NCBI GenBank assembly: GCA_026129465.1
Contig: JAHCIA010000001.1
Span: forward strand, 2,803,964 to 2,867,963
Source of the DNA: Flavobacteriales bacterium
Lineage (GTDB): Bacteria; Bacteroidota; Bacteroidia; Flavobacteriales_F; PHOS-HE28
Direction: 5' to 3'
Length of the DNA: 64,000 bases
The translations under genes were made by a program, and so were the position numbers. Numbering within the stretch: position 1 is the stretch's first letter; each line of letters starts with the position of its first letter. Below are positions 35,286-42,205 of this stretch, piece by piece. The notes below the pieces were generated by a model, which was not told where the DNA came from, made no database searches, and worked only from the letters and a program-made list of their open reading frames with translations.

Positions 35286-35596
35286 GGTCAATTGCTAACA
35301 GCGGAAGCGGCGATAGCGTTCGCGGCCGCGAAGGTAGCGGGCAGGGGTTCATGACGGGTTCCCGGGTTCTGTCAGGTGGCCGTTTCAGCAGGATGGCCCC
35401 AAGCCAGTTCAGCTTCGAACGAAACGCATGGAGACATTGCCGAACCAGCAGGACACGGACCCCCAACTCGGTCCATACCCCCAGCACGAACCCATTTGTG
35501 ATGGTGCCATTCGGCAGCCCGGCTTTGGTCAGTCGGTCTCTCGCCGGCGTGCGACCCCACTTCTTCGCACCCCCTTCGCTCTCCTACCTTCGCCCT
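35286..35596. promoter_or_regulatory. Divergent promoter region of sdhC and pepP
   Basis: No gene is seen in this 311-base gap. TACCTTCG on the minus strand (35329-35336) serves sdhC, and TACCTTCG on the plus strand (35585-35592) ends 4 bases before the pepP ATG. The rest shows no repeat or strong hairpin. Confidence 0.55.
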
Positions 35597-36913
35597 ATGC
35601 GCTACACCCCCCCTTCCGCCGCCACCTACCGAGAGCATCGCGCCCGTTTCCGCCAGCAGATGGAGAAGGGTGGTCTCGCCATCTTCCACAGCAACGACGT
35701 GATGCCCACCAGCGCCGACGGGCACCTCCCGTTCAAACAGGCAAGCGACATCCTGTACCTCACGGGCATCGACCAGGAGGAGACCATCCTGCTGCTGTTC
35801 CCCGATGCGGTGGACCCCAAGGACCGCGAGATCCTCTTCGTGCGCGAGACCAACGAGCACATCGCCATCTGGGAGGGCGCCAAGTTCACCCAGGCCGAGG
35901 CCACCGCCTTGAGCGGAATCGCCACCGTACTCTGGACCAGCGCCTACGAGGCCACCGTGAAACGGCTGCTGCCCCAGGCGGAGAAGCTGTACCTGAACAG
36001 CAACGAGCACCTGCGCCAAAGCAACGAGGTGGAAACGCGTGAGGAGCGGCTGAACAAGGTGCTGCGAGAGCGCTACCCGCTGCATGAACTGAAGCGCAGC
36101 GCGCCGATCATGCACCGCATCCGCAGCCGCAAGACGGCCGAAGAAGTGGCGCAGATCCAGCGCGCGGTGGACATCACGGGCAAGGCCTTCAAGCGTGTTT
36201 GCGGATTCATCAAGCCCGGGGTGAAGGAGTACGAGATCGAAGCGGAGATCACCCACGAGTTCCTGCGCAACGGCTCGCGCGGGCATGCCTACACGCCCAT
36301 CATCGCCAGTGGCTACAGCGCCTGCGTGCTGCACTACATCACCAACGACCAGGTCTGCCAGGACGGCGATGTGGTCCTGATGGACTTCGGCTGCGAGTAC
36401 GGCGGCTATGCCAGCGATCTCACGCGCTGCCTGCCGGTGAACGGCCGCTTCACCGATCGCCAGCGTGCGGTATACAACGCCGTGCTGCGCGTGAAGAACG
36501 AGGCCACCGCACTGCTGCGTCCCGGAACGATGCTGGCCGACTACCACAAGGAGGTGGGCCGCATCATGGAAAGTGAGCTGATCGGTCTGGGCCTGCTGGA
36601 CAAGACCGAGGTGAAGAATCAGGACCCCGAGCGCCCGCTTTACAAGAAGTACTTCATGCACGGCACCAGCCACTTCCTGGGTCTGGACGTGCACGACGTG
36701 GGCCTGTGGACCGAGCCCATCGCCGAGGGCATGGTCTTCACCGTGGAGCCGGGCATCTACATCCGCGAGGAGAAACTGGGCATCCGCCTGGAAAACGATG
36801 TGCTGGTGACCAGTGGCGCGCCTGACGACCTGTTCAAGGCTATCCCGGTGGAGGCGGAGGAGGTGGAGGAGTTGATGGCTTCCATCAGGAAGGCGTCCGG
36901 CGTGGCCATGTGA
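35597..36913 (+). CDS. pepP: Xaa-Pro aminopeptidase, M24B
   Basis: 438 residues from ATG 35597 (MRYTPPSAATYREHRARFRQ). An N-terminal creatinase-like domain (GGLAIFHSNDVMPTSADGHL, SDILYLTGIDQEETILLLF) precedes the pita-bread domain. The five metal ligands are in VVLMDFGCEYGGYASDLTRC (two Asp), FMHGTSHFLGLDVHDVGLW (His), EGMVFTVEPGIYI (Glu) and GIRLENDVLV (Glu). It removes N-terminal residues preceding proline. The start lies 4 bases after the promoter box, so the mRNA is probably near-leaderless. Confidence 0.94.
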   Translation: MRYTPPSAATYREHRARFRQQMEKGGLAIFHSNDVMPTSADGHLPFKQASDILYLTGIDQEETILLLFPDAVDPKDREILFVRETNEHIAIWEGAKFTQAEATALSGIATVLWTSAYEATVKRLLPQAEKLYLNSNEHLRQSNEVETREERLNKVLRERYPLHELKRSAPIMHRIRSRKTAEEVAQIQRAVDITGKAFKRVCGFIKPGVKEYEIEAEITHEFLRNGSRGHAYTPIIASGYSACVLHYITNDQVCQDGDVVLMDFGCEYGGYASDLTRCLPVNGRFTDRQRAVYNAVLRVKNEATALLRPGTMLADYHKEVGRIMESELIGLGLLDKTEVKNQDPERPLYKKYFMHGTSHFLGLDVHDVGLWTEPIAEGMVFTVEPGIYIREEKLGIRLENDVLVTSGAPDDLFKAIPVEAEEVEELMASIRKASGVAM

Positions 36914-36945
36914 TCCTGTTGCAGGCCCCCGGCTGATACCATCGT

Positions 36946-36953
36946 TACCTTCC
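36946..36953 (+). promoter_or_regulatory. -7-like box before the GldL-like gene (TACCTTCC)
   Basis: TACCTTCC, two mismatches to TAnnTTTG, 35 bases before ATG 36989. Confidence 0.3.
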
Positions 36954-36988
36954 GTGCTCGCCGGCATTGAGGGAGAAACTCCATCACC

Positions 36989-37513
36989 ATGCGCATCCTG
37001 CGTCACCTCGGTTTCGCTGGCCTGTTGGCCGGCTCCCTCTTCAAGCTCATGCACTGGCCGGGCGCCAACCTTTTGGTCCTGACCAGTGCCATCATGATAT
37101 TCCTGGCTTGCGTGGCGGCCTTTGTGCGTGCCCGTGAGCATCGCTCCACCGGCACGACCATCGCGCGGACGACCGGCTTGTTCCTGTTGGTGAGCGGTGT
37201 GCTGCACCTGCTGACCATACCGGGTGCGCTGCTCATGCTCTATGGTTCGGCGGGCGCAGCATCCTTCCTGCTTCTGTCGGACCGCATGGGTCTGCGCATG
37301 AAGGATGTCCGTCCACCACGACTGGCCGGACTGCTCCTGACGGGTCTGTTGTTGATGGCCACAGGAGGTCTGTTCAAGCTGATGCATTGGCCCACGGCCA
37401 ACGTCCAACTCCTGGCCGGTCTCCTGGCCAGTGCGGCATGGATACTCGCCACCATGAGGGATCCCAAGCGCGGCGAGCGATCCATGTCCGTTGGGTCGCC
37501 AGAGCCACGATGA
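36989..37513 (+). CDS. Membrane protein with duplicated GldL-like motif
   Basis: 174 residues, five or six hydrophobic segments. The phrase GSLFKLMHWPGAN (residues 15-27) recurs as GGLFKLMHWPTAN (126-138). GxLFK-x-MHWPGA is the N-terminal membrane motif of the gliding/T9SS motor protein GldL, where the lysine/glutamate region is thought to respond to proton flow. Here the protein is a compact repeat of that element without GldL's cytoplasmic tail. It is not GldL itself; a relation is inferred from the motif. Confidence 0.7.
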   Translation: MRILRHLGFAGLLAGSLFKLMHWPGANLLVLTSAIMIFLACVAAFVRAREHRSTGTTIARTTGLFLLVSGVLHLLTIPGALLMLYGSAGAASFLLLSDRMGLRMKDVRPPRLAGLLLTGLLLMATGGLFKLMHWPTANVQLLAGLLASAAWILATMRDPKRGERSMSVGSPEPR

Positions 37514-37707: not shown

Positions 37708-37968
37708 TCAAGCGACGCGGCGGAGTTGGAAGGGCTTCACGGTGGAGGTCTCCCCGTCGAGCACCATCAGGTAGTACTCCTCGCCGTCGAGGTCGGTGAT
37801 GCGAACCCGCGTCACAGGGCCGCGCACTTCGCCGGTCTTCACGATGCGGCCTTGGTCGTCGCAGATGTCGAATAGCGCGTCATCGGTGCCCGGCTCATAG
37901 TCGAACATGAGCAGGCGCTCGATCTGGTCGATGCGTACGCGGATCTGGGTGCTTCCTTCCCTCGGCAT
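37708..37968 (-). CDS. Small hypothetical protein (86 aa)
   Basis: 86 residues: MPREGSTQIRVRIDQIERLL, MFDYEPGTDDALFDICDDQG, then RITDLDGEEYYLMVLDGETS. Beta-rich, acidic, no signal peptide, no family known to me. It forms a probable two-gene unit with the 46-codon gene downstream. Upstream (37969-38378) there is a strong hairpin and a 19-codon open frame, which could form a leader. Confidence 0.6.
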   Translation of the reverse strand: MPREGSTQIRVRIDQIERLLMFDYEPGTDDALFDICDDQGRIVKTGEVRGPVTRVRITDLDGEEYYLMVLDGETSTVKPFQLRRVA

Positions 37969-38145: not shown

Positions 38146-38378
38146 GGCAACGAGGGTTTTCGCTTTGACAACTCCAAAATACCGCGGGTTGTTCTCCATT
38201 CCTTGGCGGGAACGAGCAACGGCCCTGGCGCATGGACCAGCGGCGATGGTGCCGTGTGGAGAAGGGTCCAGCAGCCTGGCCCCGGCCCGCTCCGTTGGCC
38301 CGATCGGAAGCGCCGTTCACCGGCCGCACGTTCCCGCTATGGACGACCGGCCTATCTTTTCGCCAAAGACCTGAAGCC

Positions 38379-39131
38379 ATGGCCCTGCGCGCGTTGATCG
38401 TGGATGATGAAGCCGATGCCCGGGAGAACCTCCGCCTGATGTTGGAGGAACACTGCCCCGAAGTGGAGATCGCCGGGCAGGCGGCCAGTGCGGCCGAGGC
38501 CCGGGCCAGGATCCAGGAGCTGCAACCCAATGCCTTGTTCCTGGACATCAAGATGCCGGGCGAGGACGGCTTCCAACTGCTGGCCTCCATCGCCGAGTTG
38601 GACCTGCCGGTGGTCTTCACCACCGCCTATGATGAGTATGCGCTGAAGGCCTTCAAACAGAATGCGCTCGCCTACCTGGAGAAGCCCATCGACACGGAGG
38701 AACTGAAAAGCGCCGTGGTGAAACTGCAACGACTGGCCGGCGTGATCGGCAGTGCCCAGCCCTCGGCGATCGCGGCTTTGATGAAGGACCCCGCATCGCC
38801 GTTGAGTTCACGGCTGGCCATTCCCGGCCGGGAGGGACTGGTGCTTCTGAAGCATGAGGACATCCTGTACCTGGAGGCCAACGACAGCTACACCACCGTG
38901 CATCTGAAGGATGGCAAGCGCAGTGTGAGCAGCAAACACATCCGGGTGTTCGAGAACAACCTCGATCCCAAGGTCTTCTTCCGGGTCCACAAATCATTCA
39001 TCATCAACCTGGCCCACCTGTCCAGCTTCAACCGGGCCGAAGGCAACATGGCCGTGCTCGACACCGGTGCCATGATCCCCGTTTCACGCCGGCGACTGCC
39101 TGATTTCCTGGCCCTGATCAACACCTTCTGA
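38379..39131 (+). CDS. LytTR-family response regulator
   Basis: 250 residues from ATG 38379. Receiver domain: MALRALIVDDEADARENLRL (acidic pair), ALFLDIKMPGEDGF (phospho-Asp), VVFTTAYDEYALKAF and AYLEKPIDTEEL (conserved Lys). From about residue 145 a LytTR DNA-binding domain: EGLVLLKHEDILYLEANDSY, TTVHLKDGKRSVSSKHIRVF and FFRVHKSFIINLAHLSSFNR. The stop overlaps the kinase start (TGATG), so regulator and kinase are coupled, regulator first. TATCTTTT (38353-38360) is a likely -7 box. Confidence 0.93.
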   Translation: MALRALIVDDEADARENLRLMLEEHCPEVEIAGQAASAAEARARIQELQPNALFLDIKMPGEDGFQLLASIAELDLPVVFTTAYDEYALKAFKQNALAYLEKPIDTEELKSAVVKLQRLAGVIGSAQPSAIAALMKDPASPLSSRLAIPGREGLVLLKHEDILYLEANDSYTTVHLKDGKRSVSSKHIRVFENNLDPKVFFRVHKSFIINLAHLSSFNRAEGNMAVLDTGAMIPVSRRRLPDFLALINTF

Positions 39132-42100
39132 TGACCTCGAACGGCCGGCATCGGGCCGTGTCGGTGCGCATCGTTGCGATCCTGCTGCCGGGGTTGTTCC
39201 TCGCTGCGGGTACGCGGGGCCAGCAGCACTCTTTCCGGCAGTTCACGCCACAGGAGGGTCTGGCCCAAAGCCAGGTGCGCTGCATGGCGCAGGACGCTGA
39301 CGGATATCTGTGGTTCGGCACCCTGGGCGGGGCCAGCCGGTTCGATGGACGCGTGTTCGAGAACCACGCCTTGCAGGAGGGCATACCGGATGCGCACGTG
39401 AGCGCCATGGCCGTTGACGGAGAAGGCCGCTTGTGGCTCGCGTCCGGATCGGCGCTTGTGAGGCGCGCTGGTCCGAAGTGGATGCGGGAGGAGTTGCCGC
39501 CGGGCCTGGGTGGCGCACGCATCCTGGGCCTGGTGGCCGGCCGTGATGGCCGGCTTTTCGTGGGCACCGATGGCGATGGCATGTTCGTGCGCGACCGGGA
39601 CGGCATCAGGCCTTTGCCGGGTTATCCGGCCGATACCGCCTCCCATGTGCGCTCCCTGCTGGCGCTGCGCGATGGACGCCTCTTGATCGGGCTGCGCAAT
39701 GGTCTGTTGCTCTGGGATGGCGGCCGCTGTACCCAAGTGCCGCTCGGCGATACCGAACCCAAGGCCGTGAGCGCGCTGGCGGAAGGACACGATGGCGGTT
39801 GGTGGGTGGGCACCTTCCTCGAAGGGCTCTACCACATCCTGCCCGATGGAAGACAGGAGGAGTACGACGAGGAATCGAACCTGATCCGCAACAACGTGCG
39901 CTGTCTGCTGGTGGACGACAAGGGCAGGCTTTGGGTGGGCACCAAGTTCGGCCTCAACCTGTTCGAGGATGGCCGGTTCAAGGTCTTCACCATCCACCAG
40001 GGCATGCCCAACGACAACGTCTGGTGCGCCTTCCAGGATCGCGAAGGCAACCTGTGGTTCGGCACCGATGGCGCTGGCGCCTTGCGTTACGCGGGTGACC
40101 GCTTCACGACCTTCACCATACGCGATGGTCTGTGCAGCGACCTGGTGATGAACATCACGCAGGATGCGCAGGGCGACCTGTGGCTGGGCACCTACGACAA
40201 TGGCGTGTGCCGCATGGACGGCATGGCCATGGTCAATACGCTGGATGGTCTGCCCAACAACACCGTGTGGAGCGGCTTGTGCGGCCGTGATGGCACCCTC
40301 TGGTTCGGCACCAGTGAAGGCCTTGCCCGTATCGAACGTGGCGTGGTGCGTCCTCTGTCGCGGGAGGCATCACTCGCCCGGCAACGTGTACTCGCTTTGC
40401 ATGAGGATGAAGCGGGCAACATCTGGGCGGGTACTCGCGATGGGCTGGTGCGCATAGGATCCGATGGGCAGGTGAAGCACCACCAGGCGGGCCCCGATGG
40501 ACCCGGACGATCCATACGCAGGATCATCGACATTGGCGATGGCAAGATGCTGCTCGCCACGGAACAGGGCCTTTGCCGCTACGACCATGGAGTGTTCACC
40601 CGGTGGACCATTGCGGACGGACTGAGCGATGACAATGTGATGTGCCTGCTGCGCGATGGCGCCGGACGGGTCTGGGCGGGAACTTCCAATGGCATCACCT
40701 GCATGGAGGGTGGCGTGTTCAAGATCATACGACTCGCCTCGGATTTCGGATCCAACTATGTGGACATGCTGCTGAGCGACGAACGGGGACGTATCTGGGC
40801 CGGCACCAACAACGGACTCTTCGTCTTCCATCCGGACAGCTTGTTCGCCGACCCCTCCGCCCATGCACGGATCACCATGAACGACGGTCTGCGCGGTCTG
40901 GAGTTCAACTTGAACGCGGGGTTCGCCGATGCACGGGGAAGATTGTTCATGGGCAGTGCGGCGGGACTGGTCCACCATGATGTGCGCCGGCATGGCGATC
41001 CACCCCGGCCGCCCGCGCCCAACGTGCGCATCACGGGCCTGCGCTCCTTCCTTCAGCACACCGATTGGTCCGGCCAGTGCGACAGCATCGATGCCTCCGG
41101 CCTGCCCATTGGCCTTGAGCTCGCCTACCGCAGACATTACCTCACGTTCGACTACACGGGCATCAGCCTTGGCGCGCCCGAACGCGTCGTGTATCGCTAC
41201 CGGCTGCTCGGGCTCGACAATGAATGGCTTCCGGCCACCGACGCGCGTTTCGCCAGTTGGAGCAATCTGCCGCACGGCGAATACACTTTCGAGGTGATGG
41301 CCGCCCTGCAGGGCGGGCCTTGGAGTGCACCGTCCGCATTCACCTTCAGGATCTCGCCGCCATTCTGGTCGCGCTGGTGGTTCTTCGTATTGGTGCTGGC
41401 GGCCATGGTGCTCGCGGTCCTCGGGGTGGCCCACTACAGGTCGGTTCGCAGGGCACGCGCCGAACGCACCCGGCAGCTCATGCTGCGGTCGCGCATGTTG
41501 CAACTGGAGCAGCAAGCATTGAACGCGAACATGAACCGGCACTTCGTCTTCAACGCGCTCAACAGCATCCAGTACCACATCAACCGGCAGGATCGCGCCA
41601 CGGCCAGTCGCTACCTCACAAGCTTCGCCAAGCTCATCCGAAAGAACTTGGATGCCAGCCAGAACGACACCACCACCCTGGCGGAGGAGCTTGAGCGTTT
41701 GGAACTATACCTCACCTTGGAGCACATGCGTTTCAAGGACCGGTTCAGGTACACCATCCAGGTGGAAGCGGAAGTGGATACCTCACAGGTGCGTTTGCCC
41801 GCCATGATGCTGCAGCCGTACGTGGAGAACAGCATCTGGCATGGCATCTTGCCCATGCAGGAGCAGGGCCAGGTGGACATCCAGGTGGCGCGGTCAGGTC
41901 CCGGGCGCGTCCAGGTCACCATCGAGGATGACGGGGTGGGGGTGGAGCACAGCCTGCGGGCCAAGGAGGGTCAGGGTGGCGACCACATCTCCCGGGGGAT
42001 CGAGATCACGAAGGGCCGGGCGGACATTCTGAGACATCTGGCGCTCACGGACATACGTATCACAGGACCCGAACAGCGCCACAATCCGGGGACGGGCGAG

Positions 42101-42205
42101 GCCTTGGGCACCAGGGTCGTGATCGACCTCCCCATGGGCCATGGCCCTGCTGAAGGCAAGCAGGGTTTGCGAAAGGGCCAGGGCCAGCCTATATTTGGAA
42201 CATGA
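39131..42205 (+). CDS. Propeller-sensor histidine kinase, LytS type
   Basis: 1024 residues. A signal peptide (VAILLPGLFLAAGTRG) is followed by about a dozen two-component-regulator propeller strands (GYLWFGTLGGASRFDG, GRLWVGTKFGLNLFEDG, GNLWFGTDGAGALRYAG, GDLWLGTYDNGVCRMDG). A Y_Y_Y domain at about 680-740 (GLDNEWLPATDARFASWSNL), one membrane helix near 748-768 and a LytS kinase domain follow. The phospho-histidine is in MNRHFVFNALNSIQ, with Arg where NPHF is usual; VENSIWHGI and DDGVGVE form the ATP site. It senses something in the periplasm and signals to the coupled LytTR regulator. Confidence 0.92.
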   Translation: MTSNGRHRAVSVRIVAILLPGLFLAAGTRGQQHSFRQFTPQEGLAQSQVRCMAQDADGYLWFGTLGGASRFDGRVFENHALQEGIPDAHVSAMAVDGEGRLWLASGSALVRRAGPKWMREELPPGLGGARILGLVAGRDGRLFVGTDGDGMFVRDRDGIRPLPGYPADTASHVRSLLALRDGRLLIGLRNGLLLWDGGRCTQVPLGDTEPKAVSALAEGHDGGWWVGTFLEGLYHILPDGRQEEYDEESNLIRNNVRCLLVDDKGRLWVGTKFGLNLFEDGRFKVFTIHQGMPNDNVWCAFQDREGNLWFGTDGAGALRYAGDRFTTFTIRDGLCSDLVMNITQDAQGDLWLGTYDNGVCRMDGMAMVNTLDGLPNNTVWSGLCGRDGTLWFGTSEGLARIERGVVRPLSREASLARQRVLALHEDEAGNIWAGTRDGLVRIGSDGQVKHHQAGPDGPGRSIRRIIDIGDGKMLLATEQGLCRYDHGVFTRWTIADGLSDDNVMCLLRDGAGRVWAGTSNGITCMEGGVFKIIRLASDFGSNYVDMLLSDERGRIWAGTNNGLFVFHPDSLFADPSAHARITMNDGLRGLEFNLNAGFADARGRLFMGSAAGLVHHDVRRHGDPPRPPAPNVRITGLRSFLQHTDWSGQCDSIDASGLPIGLELAYRRHYLTFDYTGISLGAPERVVYRYRLLGLDNEWLPATDARFASWSNLPHGEYTFEVMAALQGGPWSAPSAFTFRISPPFWSRWWFFVLVLAAMVLAVLGVAHYRSVRRARAERTRQLMLRSRMLQLEQQALNANMNRHFVFNALNSIQYHINRQDRATASRYLTSFAKLIRKNLDASQNDTTTLAEELERLELYLTLEHMRFKDRFRYTIQVEAEVDTSQVRLPAMMLQPYVENSIWHGILPMQEQGQVDIQVARSGPGRVQVTIEDDGVGVEHSLRAKEGQGGDHISRGIEITKGRADILRHLALTDIRITGPEQRHNPGTGEALGTRVVIDLPMGHGPAEGKQGLRKGQGQPIFGT
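42190..42197 (+). promoter_or_regulatory. -7 box (TATATTTG) inside the end of the kinase gene
   Basis: Exact TAnnTTTG match, 4 bases before the ATG of the small lipoprotein gene at 42202. Confidence 0.5.

Follow-up and report, generated by a model that had tools for sequence, protein, structure and literature searches.

A three-hairpin membrane protein of the GldL hairpin family, without an equivalent of the GldL residue E49, encoded beside pepP in a Flavobacteriales genome

GldL and PorL are stator proteins of the T9SS/gliding motor and have one helical hairpin per chain. According to two sources (PMC9389320, PMC8986121), the GldLM motor consists of a GldL pentamer placed around a GldM dimer, that is, of a 5:2 complex, and the second source (PMC8986121) describes residue E49 in helix 2 of GldL as strictly conserved among GldL homologues and as needed for motor function. 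The window, by which we mean the whole stretch of 64,000 nucleotides that was analysed, encodes a 174-residue membrane protein that resembles GldL/PorL in having a helical hairpin with a turn of the FKxxHWPGA type, but it carries three hairpins in one chain, has neither an equivalent of E49 nor the cytoplasmic C-terminal domain, and is not encoded in gldKLMN. This protein is a free-standing three-hairpin member of a broad family of GldL-hairpin repeat proteins of the Bacteroidota. The explanation that we favour, with a probability of roughly 0.45, is that it works as a three-hairpin, proton-inert ring-sector or scaffold protein of the membrane, possibly with a regulatory role. Its identity as a three-hairpin member of the GldL family that is not GldL is held with high confidence, while the mechanism included in this explanation is put forward tentatively, at somewhat less than even odds. 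The features of the locus are the following:

35570..36913, plus strand: pepP (aminopeptidase P; Pfam Peptidase_M24 and AMP_N), upstream of the hairpin gene and left border of a variable site.
36989..37513, plus strand: gene of the three-hairpin GldL_N-type membrane protein (open reading frame of 174 aa; Pfam GldL_N, E 9.3e-10; six membrane helices by AlphaFold).
36992..37129, plus strand: hairpin 1 (helices 2-20 and 26-47) with motif GSLFKLMHWPGAN (47.4 bits with the hairpin HMM; AlphaFold).
37148..37285, plus strand: hairpin 2 (helices 54-74 and 80-99) with the decayed turn TIPGA at 37214-37228 (AlphaFold; homologue alignment).
37316..37456, plus strand: hairpin 3 (helices 110-131 and 137-156) with motif GGLFKLMHWPTAN (47.4 bits with the hairpin HMM; AlphaFold).
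37708..37968, minus strand: gene of an 86-aa orphan on the right side of the variable site (recurrence at the site in many genus members).
38376..39131, plus strand: LytTR response regulator (Pfam Response_reg and LytTR; syntenic in the genus).
39131..42205, plus strand: Reg_prop/Y_Y_Y histidine kinase (Pfam Reg_prop, Y_Y_Y and His_kinase).

The sequence-only reading had pointed out two GldL-type motifs lying 111 residues apart in the 174-aa protein, and this pair withstood the shuffling of the sequence. The copies GSLFKLMHWPGAN (residues 15-27, DNA 37031-37069) and GGLFKLMHWPTAN (residues 126-138, DNA 37364-37402) are identical at 11 of 13 residues with an offset of 111 residues, a score never reached in 3000 shuffles of the protein, whose top self-match was 9/13 and was attained once. 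A degenerate DNA pattern of the core, derived from the two motif copies themselves, has two sites in the window, both of them these copies, against 0.02 expected. The codons of the 11 identical residues are the same in six cases and different in the other five, which argues for an old duplication kept at the protein level and rules out the remnant of a recent duplication of DNA. The GC content of the gene by codon position (0.63/0.50/0.75) is periodic like that of three neighbouring genes, but more weakly so. A 678-aa open frame (35372-37408, minus strand) also runs antisense to pepP and to the hairpin gene; it is probably a by-product of the high GC content.

The same earlier reading took the protein to be just two such elements, and in this respect it has to be corrected, since three hairpins emerge from the AlphaFold model and from the alignment of the middle turn with its homologues. 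The structure prediction, for which the input was an alignment of eight three-hairpin sequences including that of the window protein, yields six helices arranged as three hairpins (mean pLDDT 80.6, pTM 0.70), with membrane helices at residues 2-20, 26-47, 54-74, 80-99, 110-131 and 137-156; the sixth ends at residue 156 of 174, is followed by a helix of 7 residues and leaves 18 residues to the chain end. A hairpin HMM trained on relatives, with the window protein excluded, gave 47.4 bits to residues 1-47 and again 47.4 bits to residues 114-155. The tandem arrangement is thus found by HMM for hairpins 1 and 3, and by the model and the alignment for hairpin 2. The turns of the homologues that align with the middle TIPGA read HLPFA, HLPGR, EIPGG, HWPYA and similar, and the proline of this turn (Pro78 in the window protein) is invariant in the eight three-hairpin sequences. 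From the window sequence alone the middle hairpin was not significant with three HMMs (score reached in 91/1000, 89/2000 and 1634/2000 shuffles). Among the homologues, the middle hairpin at locus L184 scored 13.5 bits, which no shuffle of the middle part out of 1000 reached; the score was reached in 4/1000 shuffles for L180 and in 26/1000 for L187, a borderline case, and the middle hairpin of L177 was not significant by HMM (701/1000). Judged by the model and the alignment, TIPGA represents a decayed middle turn whose counterparts in homologues are clearer. The loops between the hairpins of the window protein are basic, which is consistent with an in-out-in path of each hairpin, as described for GldL in PMC8986121.

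The profile search against GldL that the sequence-only reading had proposed gave a match above the cut-off with the domain model and one below it with the equivalog model. Pfam GldL_N (PF22827) scored 39 bits over two stretches of the protein (E 9.3e-10; cut-off 24), the two stretches scoring singly 22.4 and 20 bits in a whole-genome search, each below the cut-off of 24, and the best of them covering 24 of the 62 profile positions. The NCBIfam equivalog of GldL (TIGR03513) gave 31.9 bits, below its cut-off of 68.3, compared with 240.4 bits for the true GldL of the same genome. The homologue set had been gathered by a motif-based scan, so that its motif conservation is in part a matter of construction, and the motif columns were removed for a comparison of profiles with hhalign because the relatives came from that scan. 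The profile of the other hairpins aligned with the GldL profile at 99.4% when complete, and at 94.6% without the motif columns (E 7.1e-8, score 29.0, against a maximum of 10.4 in 50 column-permuted controls), in a comparison biased against likeness at the E49 column by a GldL profile built from a Glu-selected set and another profile that excludes Glu copies. Because the profiles align even without the motif columns, the GldL likeness can be regarded as homology, and the assignment of the motif to the GldL type is borne out by this alignment together with the GldL_N match.

Structural comparisons were less specific. A fold search with the model of the window protein gave no match at E 0.001, and a GldL chain (7sau_E) stood at rank 7 (E 1.1, prob 0.90, TM-score 0.62 over the 72-residue chain). 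VIA-align of the model rendered generic helix bundles with Z up to 11.7, below the telling level for helical bundles, GldL being absent among the 50 matches listed. In a sequence search of the PDB the best match was a magnesium transporter (E 0.0081), with two GldL chains at E 0.05 and 1.2, and a PHROGs search gave no match. It could be argued from the short span of the best Pfam stretch (24/62 positions) and from the fold match to GldL, which is not significant by E-value, that this is an unrelated membrane protein that resembles GldL by chance over a short motif; such a reading is extremely improbable, since the profiles still align without the motif and some relatives carry GldM_1st behind the same hairpins, with E-values as low as 3.4e-24. 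A chance motif is ruled out by the shuffles, by the rarity of the DNA pattern and by the motif-free profile alignment.

As judged from its sequence, the window protein shares descent with the GldL hairpin, yet it is not GldL; GldL proper is ruled out by the residue at the E49 position, the equivalog score, the size and the locus. The genome does have, apart from the window gene, the complete gldKLMN cluster whose presence the earlier reading wanted checked, in the order PorP/SprF-gldK-gldL-gldM-gldN (GldL and GldM named by Pfam/NCBIfam; PorP/SprF, GldK and GldN by eye). GldL_N matches in the whole genome are limited to GldL and the window protein.

The position equivalent to E49 separates GldL from the multi-hairpin proteins. 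When GldL was identified from its C-terminal part alone, and the position was taken as 15 residues after the motif His, 56 of the 57 distinct GldL hairpins had Glu; in the remaining one (L124) an insertion shifts the Glu. Glu was found at this position in 0/123 hairpin copies from non-GldL proteins with at least two motifs and in 0/25 other single-motif frames of at least 100 aa. Two of these 25 frames, L036 (117 aa) and L181 (200 aa), probably hold no real hairpins. Among the 15 distinct copies from single-motif frames shorter than 100 aa, five have Glu at the position and nine have Gln; the five minis that keep Glu imply that the family is not proton-inert throughout by the E49 criterion. 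The window protein has Ile in hairpin 1, Ser in hairpin 3 and, by alignment, Ala in hairpin 2, and its six membrane helices are free of acidic residues (D/E) apart from one at the cytoplasmic end of helix 4. Hairpins 1 and 3 keep the Lys and His of FKxxHWP, which are also invariant across the 9+9 members of the tandem pairs described below. It is conceivable that these two residues substitute for E49 in an ion-conducting or still energy-coupled protein, but this is very unlikely, as all three hairpins lack the acidic residue that GldL needs according to PMC8986121, and in the middle hairpin the Lys is replaced by His and the His by Thr.

The hairpin genes of the genus adjoin pepP on its flank that faces the 86-aa orphan and the genes of the LytTR regulator and the histidine kinase; for L183 and L200 the DNA examined does not include the LytTR gene. 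Fifteen genus loci, the window included, have a hairpin gene at this site: a three-hairpin gene alone at three (window, L184 and L187), both a three-hairpin gene and a two-hairpin gene at three others (L177, L180 and L182), and a two-hairpin gene alone at nine, the second hairpin copy of L189 having been assigned by eye. The homologue at L184, a three-hairpin protein at the same chromosomal site, is 35% identical to the window protein. The orphan (37708..37968, minus strand) matched no Pfam family at E 0.01. In fourteen genus members that gave only one GldL_N match we looked for the LytTR gene, and in the 12 of these whose site was examined the hairpin HMM found no hairpin (12/12); pepP was adjacent in five of them, where the site is empty. 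Many genomes of the genus lack a hairpin gene of the window type, and the window gene is an optional insert beside pepP within one genus.

Other hairpin loci of the genus are found at sites other than pepP. Stand-alone proteins with one, two or three hairpins, in the genus and in Flavobacterium, share the same hairpin with no other domain recognised and vary in copy number. Single-hairpin minis of 60-80 aa with Glu or Gln at the E49 position were seen at L179:5738-5947, L186:5921-6130, L192:6070-6525, L064:4621-4821, L073:5971-6153 and L077:5938-6153; those of the genus occupy a second recurrent site, with a glyoxalase-like gene adjacent and a deoxyhypusine-synthase gene nearby (by Pfam in L179; the glyoxalase also in L195). 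A third hairpin type of the genus stands beside a response regulator/histidine kinase pair (L188:5692-6153, L193:5783-6355 and L194:5973-6431); in L188 the neighbours are a LuxR-type Response_reg/GerE protein and a HisKA_3 kinase by Pfam, and L193 and L194 have genes of the same sizes. One genus member has a second GldM_1st gene (G016:C2:34869-35501, in a 619-aa open frame) a few kb from the canonical one.

At the level of the class, PF22827 (GldL_N) matched 153 of 158 genomes, and with two exceptions the best E-value in these was at most 2.1e-21, which is the level of GldL itself; PF12081 matched 154 of 158, so that co-occurrence with T9SS is uninformative on the function of the hairpin gene. 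In the taxonomic family, 41 of 45 genomes match the three-hairpin profile somewhere, many through GldL, and eight do so over most of the profile. A contig labelled Parachlamydia sp. (L102) carries a Flavobacterium-like GldL, probably as a result of a binning error. An ancestor-like form of the motor subunit, which the earlier reading had considered, fits poorly with an optional insert of one genus that has no Glu at the E49 position, while GldL_N is near-universal in the class.

The same reading also considered a decoy or regulator of the motor. The three hairpins could replace or cap GldL around the GldM helices and thereby lower or tune the number or the output of motors, since proton transport is not possible through a ring sector that lacks E49. 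The window protein belongs to the same hairpin family as GldL, all three of its hairpins lack Glu at the E49 position, and GldM alone matches GldM_1st in the genome, which leaves GldM as the only known axle to surround. We nevertheless consider such modulation of the GldLM motor unlikely, given that the window gene is unlinked to the gldKLMN cluster, that the hairpin gene is absent from many T9SS-bearing genomes of the same genus, and that units of three hairpins alone cannot form a ring of five.

A motif scan of one genome per species rendered 124 places, and the best 80 of these 124 loci were analysed. Besides GldL, they encode proteins of about 310-490 aa in which two or three hairpins are followed by a further helix and region. 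Pfam GldM_1st was recognised behind the hairpins in L041 (3.4e-24), in the two L037 proteins (2.3e-11 and 3.0e-12) and in L023 (3.9e-13), its cut-off being passed by four of the eight long relatives tested. GldM_1st was checked in 14 genomes that have long relatives; each gave a match, which in 12 lies in an open frame longer than 500 aa. A PadR-type gene lies directly upstream of the long relatives at 23 of 32 loci by eye, and Pfam agreed in the 2/2 cases tested; a complete PadR gene is missing at the other nine (contig edge, truncated or absent), one of which is GldL by context. Searches of the PadR-linked hairpin proteins with Pfam and NCBIfam gave partial GldL/GldM matches only. Many of these proteins have an N-terminal soluble domain, conceivably of the HAAS type, one 84-aa piece of which had no Pfam match. 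The window protein shares with the PadR-linked GldL-GldM proteins the tandem hairpins of GldL type in which the E49 position is not Glu; unlike it, they have the further helix and a periplasmic part, and many have the N-terminal domain and the PadR gene ahead. The Pfam scan of the window protein gave no GldM_1st match with E-values up to 10 considered, and its gene has no adjacent PadR gene, being flanked by pepP upstream and by the orphan and LytTR genes downstream.

The recurrence of regulatory genes next to hairpin genes could point to a sensor subunit, in which the hairpin bundle would report the state of the membrane or of the proton gradient to neighbouring regulators (LytTR/kinase, PadR or the LuxR-type pair). 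Synteny with the LytTR and histidine kinase genes across the genus, the PadR-type gene ahead of long relatives at the 23/32 loci, and the Response_reg/GerE and HisKA_3 kinase genes that adjoin the hairpin gene in L188 are all in line with it. On the other hand, the LytTR-kinase pair also occurs without any hairpin gene, a minus-strand gene between the hairpin gene and this pair precludes a shared operon, the L188 kinase is convergent to the hairpin gene, and the complete PadR gene is missing at 9/32 loci, so that a sensor of this kind appears quite unlikely.

Long hairpin genes occur in tandem at ten loci, with 3+2 hairpins at nine (L037:1999-4796, L036, L045, L050, L053, L054, L056, L072 and L078; mostly behind a PadR gene) and 2+2 at L052, as counted with an HMM trained without the tandem loci. 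At the 3+2 loci the first gene has three hairpins and the second has two, while among the other long frames 25 of 28 have two; of the rest, two have three and one is GldL. GldM_1st was recognised at E 0.01 in three of nine three-hairpin and two of nine two-hairpin proteins of the pairs, and since Pfam recognises so few, the GldM likeness of most pair members rests on alignment to those that are recognised. The model of the three-hairpin L037 protein (470 aa) was poor (pLDDT 68.5, pTM 0.39), and its best PDB match was the N-terminal domain of PorM (E 0.051, prob 1.00, TM-score 0.67 over the target). Three plus two hairpins together with two axles would give a pair the same make-up as the 5:2 GldLM motor. 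The 3+2 arrangement is also present at the window-type site, where the three relatives mentioned above have a three-hairpin and a two-hairpin gene adjacent. A search of the open-access literature listed no paper that points to GldL-hairpin repeat or GldL-GldM fusion proteins.

Returning to the favoured reading, that of a proton-inert ring sector or scaffold, the protein is predicted to reside in the inner membrane, with three tandem GldL-type hairpins making up six transmembrane helices. By analogy with GldL and from the basic loops, each hairpin would run from inside to outside, turn with its FKxxHWP-type motif on the periplasmic side, and return. The hairpins would lie next to one another as in a sector of the GldL ring, and the protein may assemble with further copies of itself or with a different hairpin protein. 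The resulting membrane scaffold would be for signalling or for upkeep of the envelope rather than for energy conversion. With neither the E49 residue nor a cytoplasmic tail nor a GldM-type axle, the window protein is most likely a proton-inert module, and not an engine; it probably serves as a building block or a regulator that derives from the motor. A wider proposal, possible although on balance unlikely, is that the Bacteroidota have a second class of 5:2-derived complexes in which ring and axle are fused: the PadR-linked heterodimer, with 3 + 2 hairpins and two GldM-like axles, would be a complete 5:2 complex that lacks the Glu for carrying protons and has been converted from a motor into a membrane sensor or a mechanical signal relay, and the window protein would be a free three-hairpin sector of such a ring.

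The three-hairpin reading accounts for an otherwise odd open reading frame in the window, and it implies that a GldL_N match by itself is no proof of a T9SS motor gene. In the known 5:2 complex GldL and GldM are separate subunits; if repeated Glu-less hairpins are indeed fused to GldM-like parts, then the 5:2 arrangement would have been built covalently and reused without proton drive. Moreover, if the 3+2 pairs are what they appear to be, their five non-identical hairpins in fixed order would be natural constructs for testing each position of the ring, and the pairs may link the state of the envelope to transcription.
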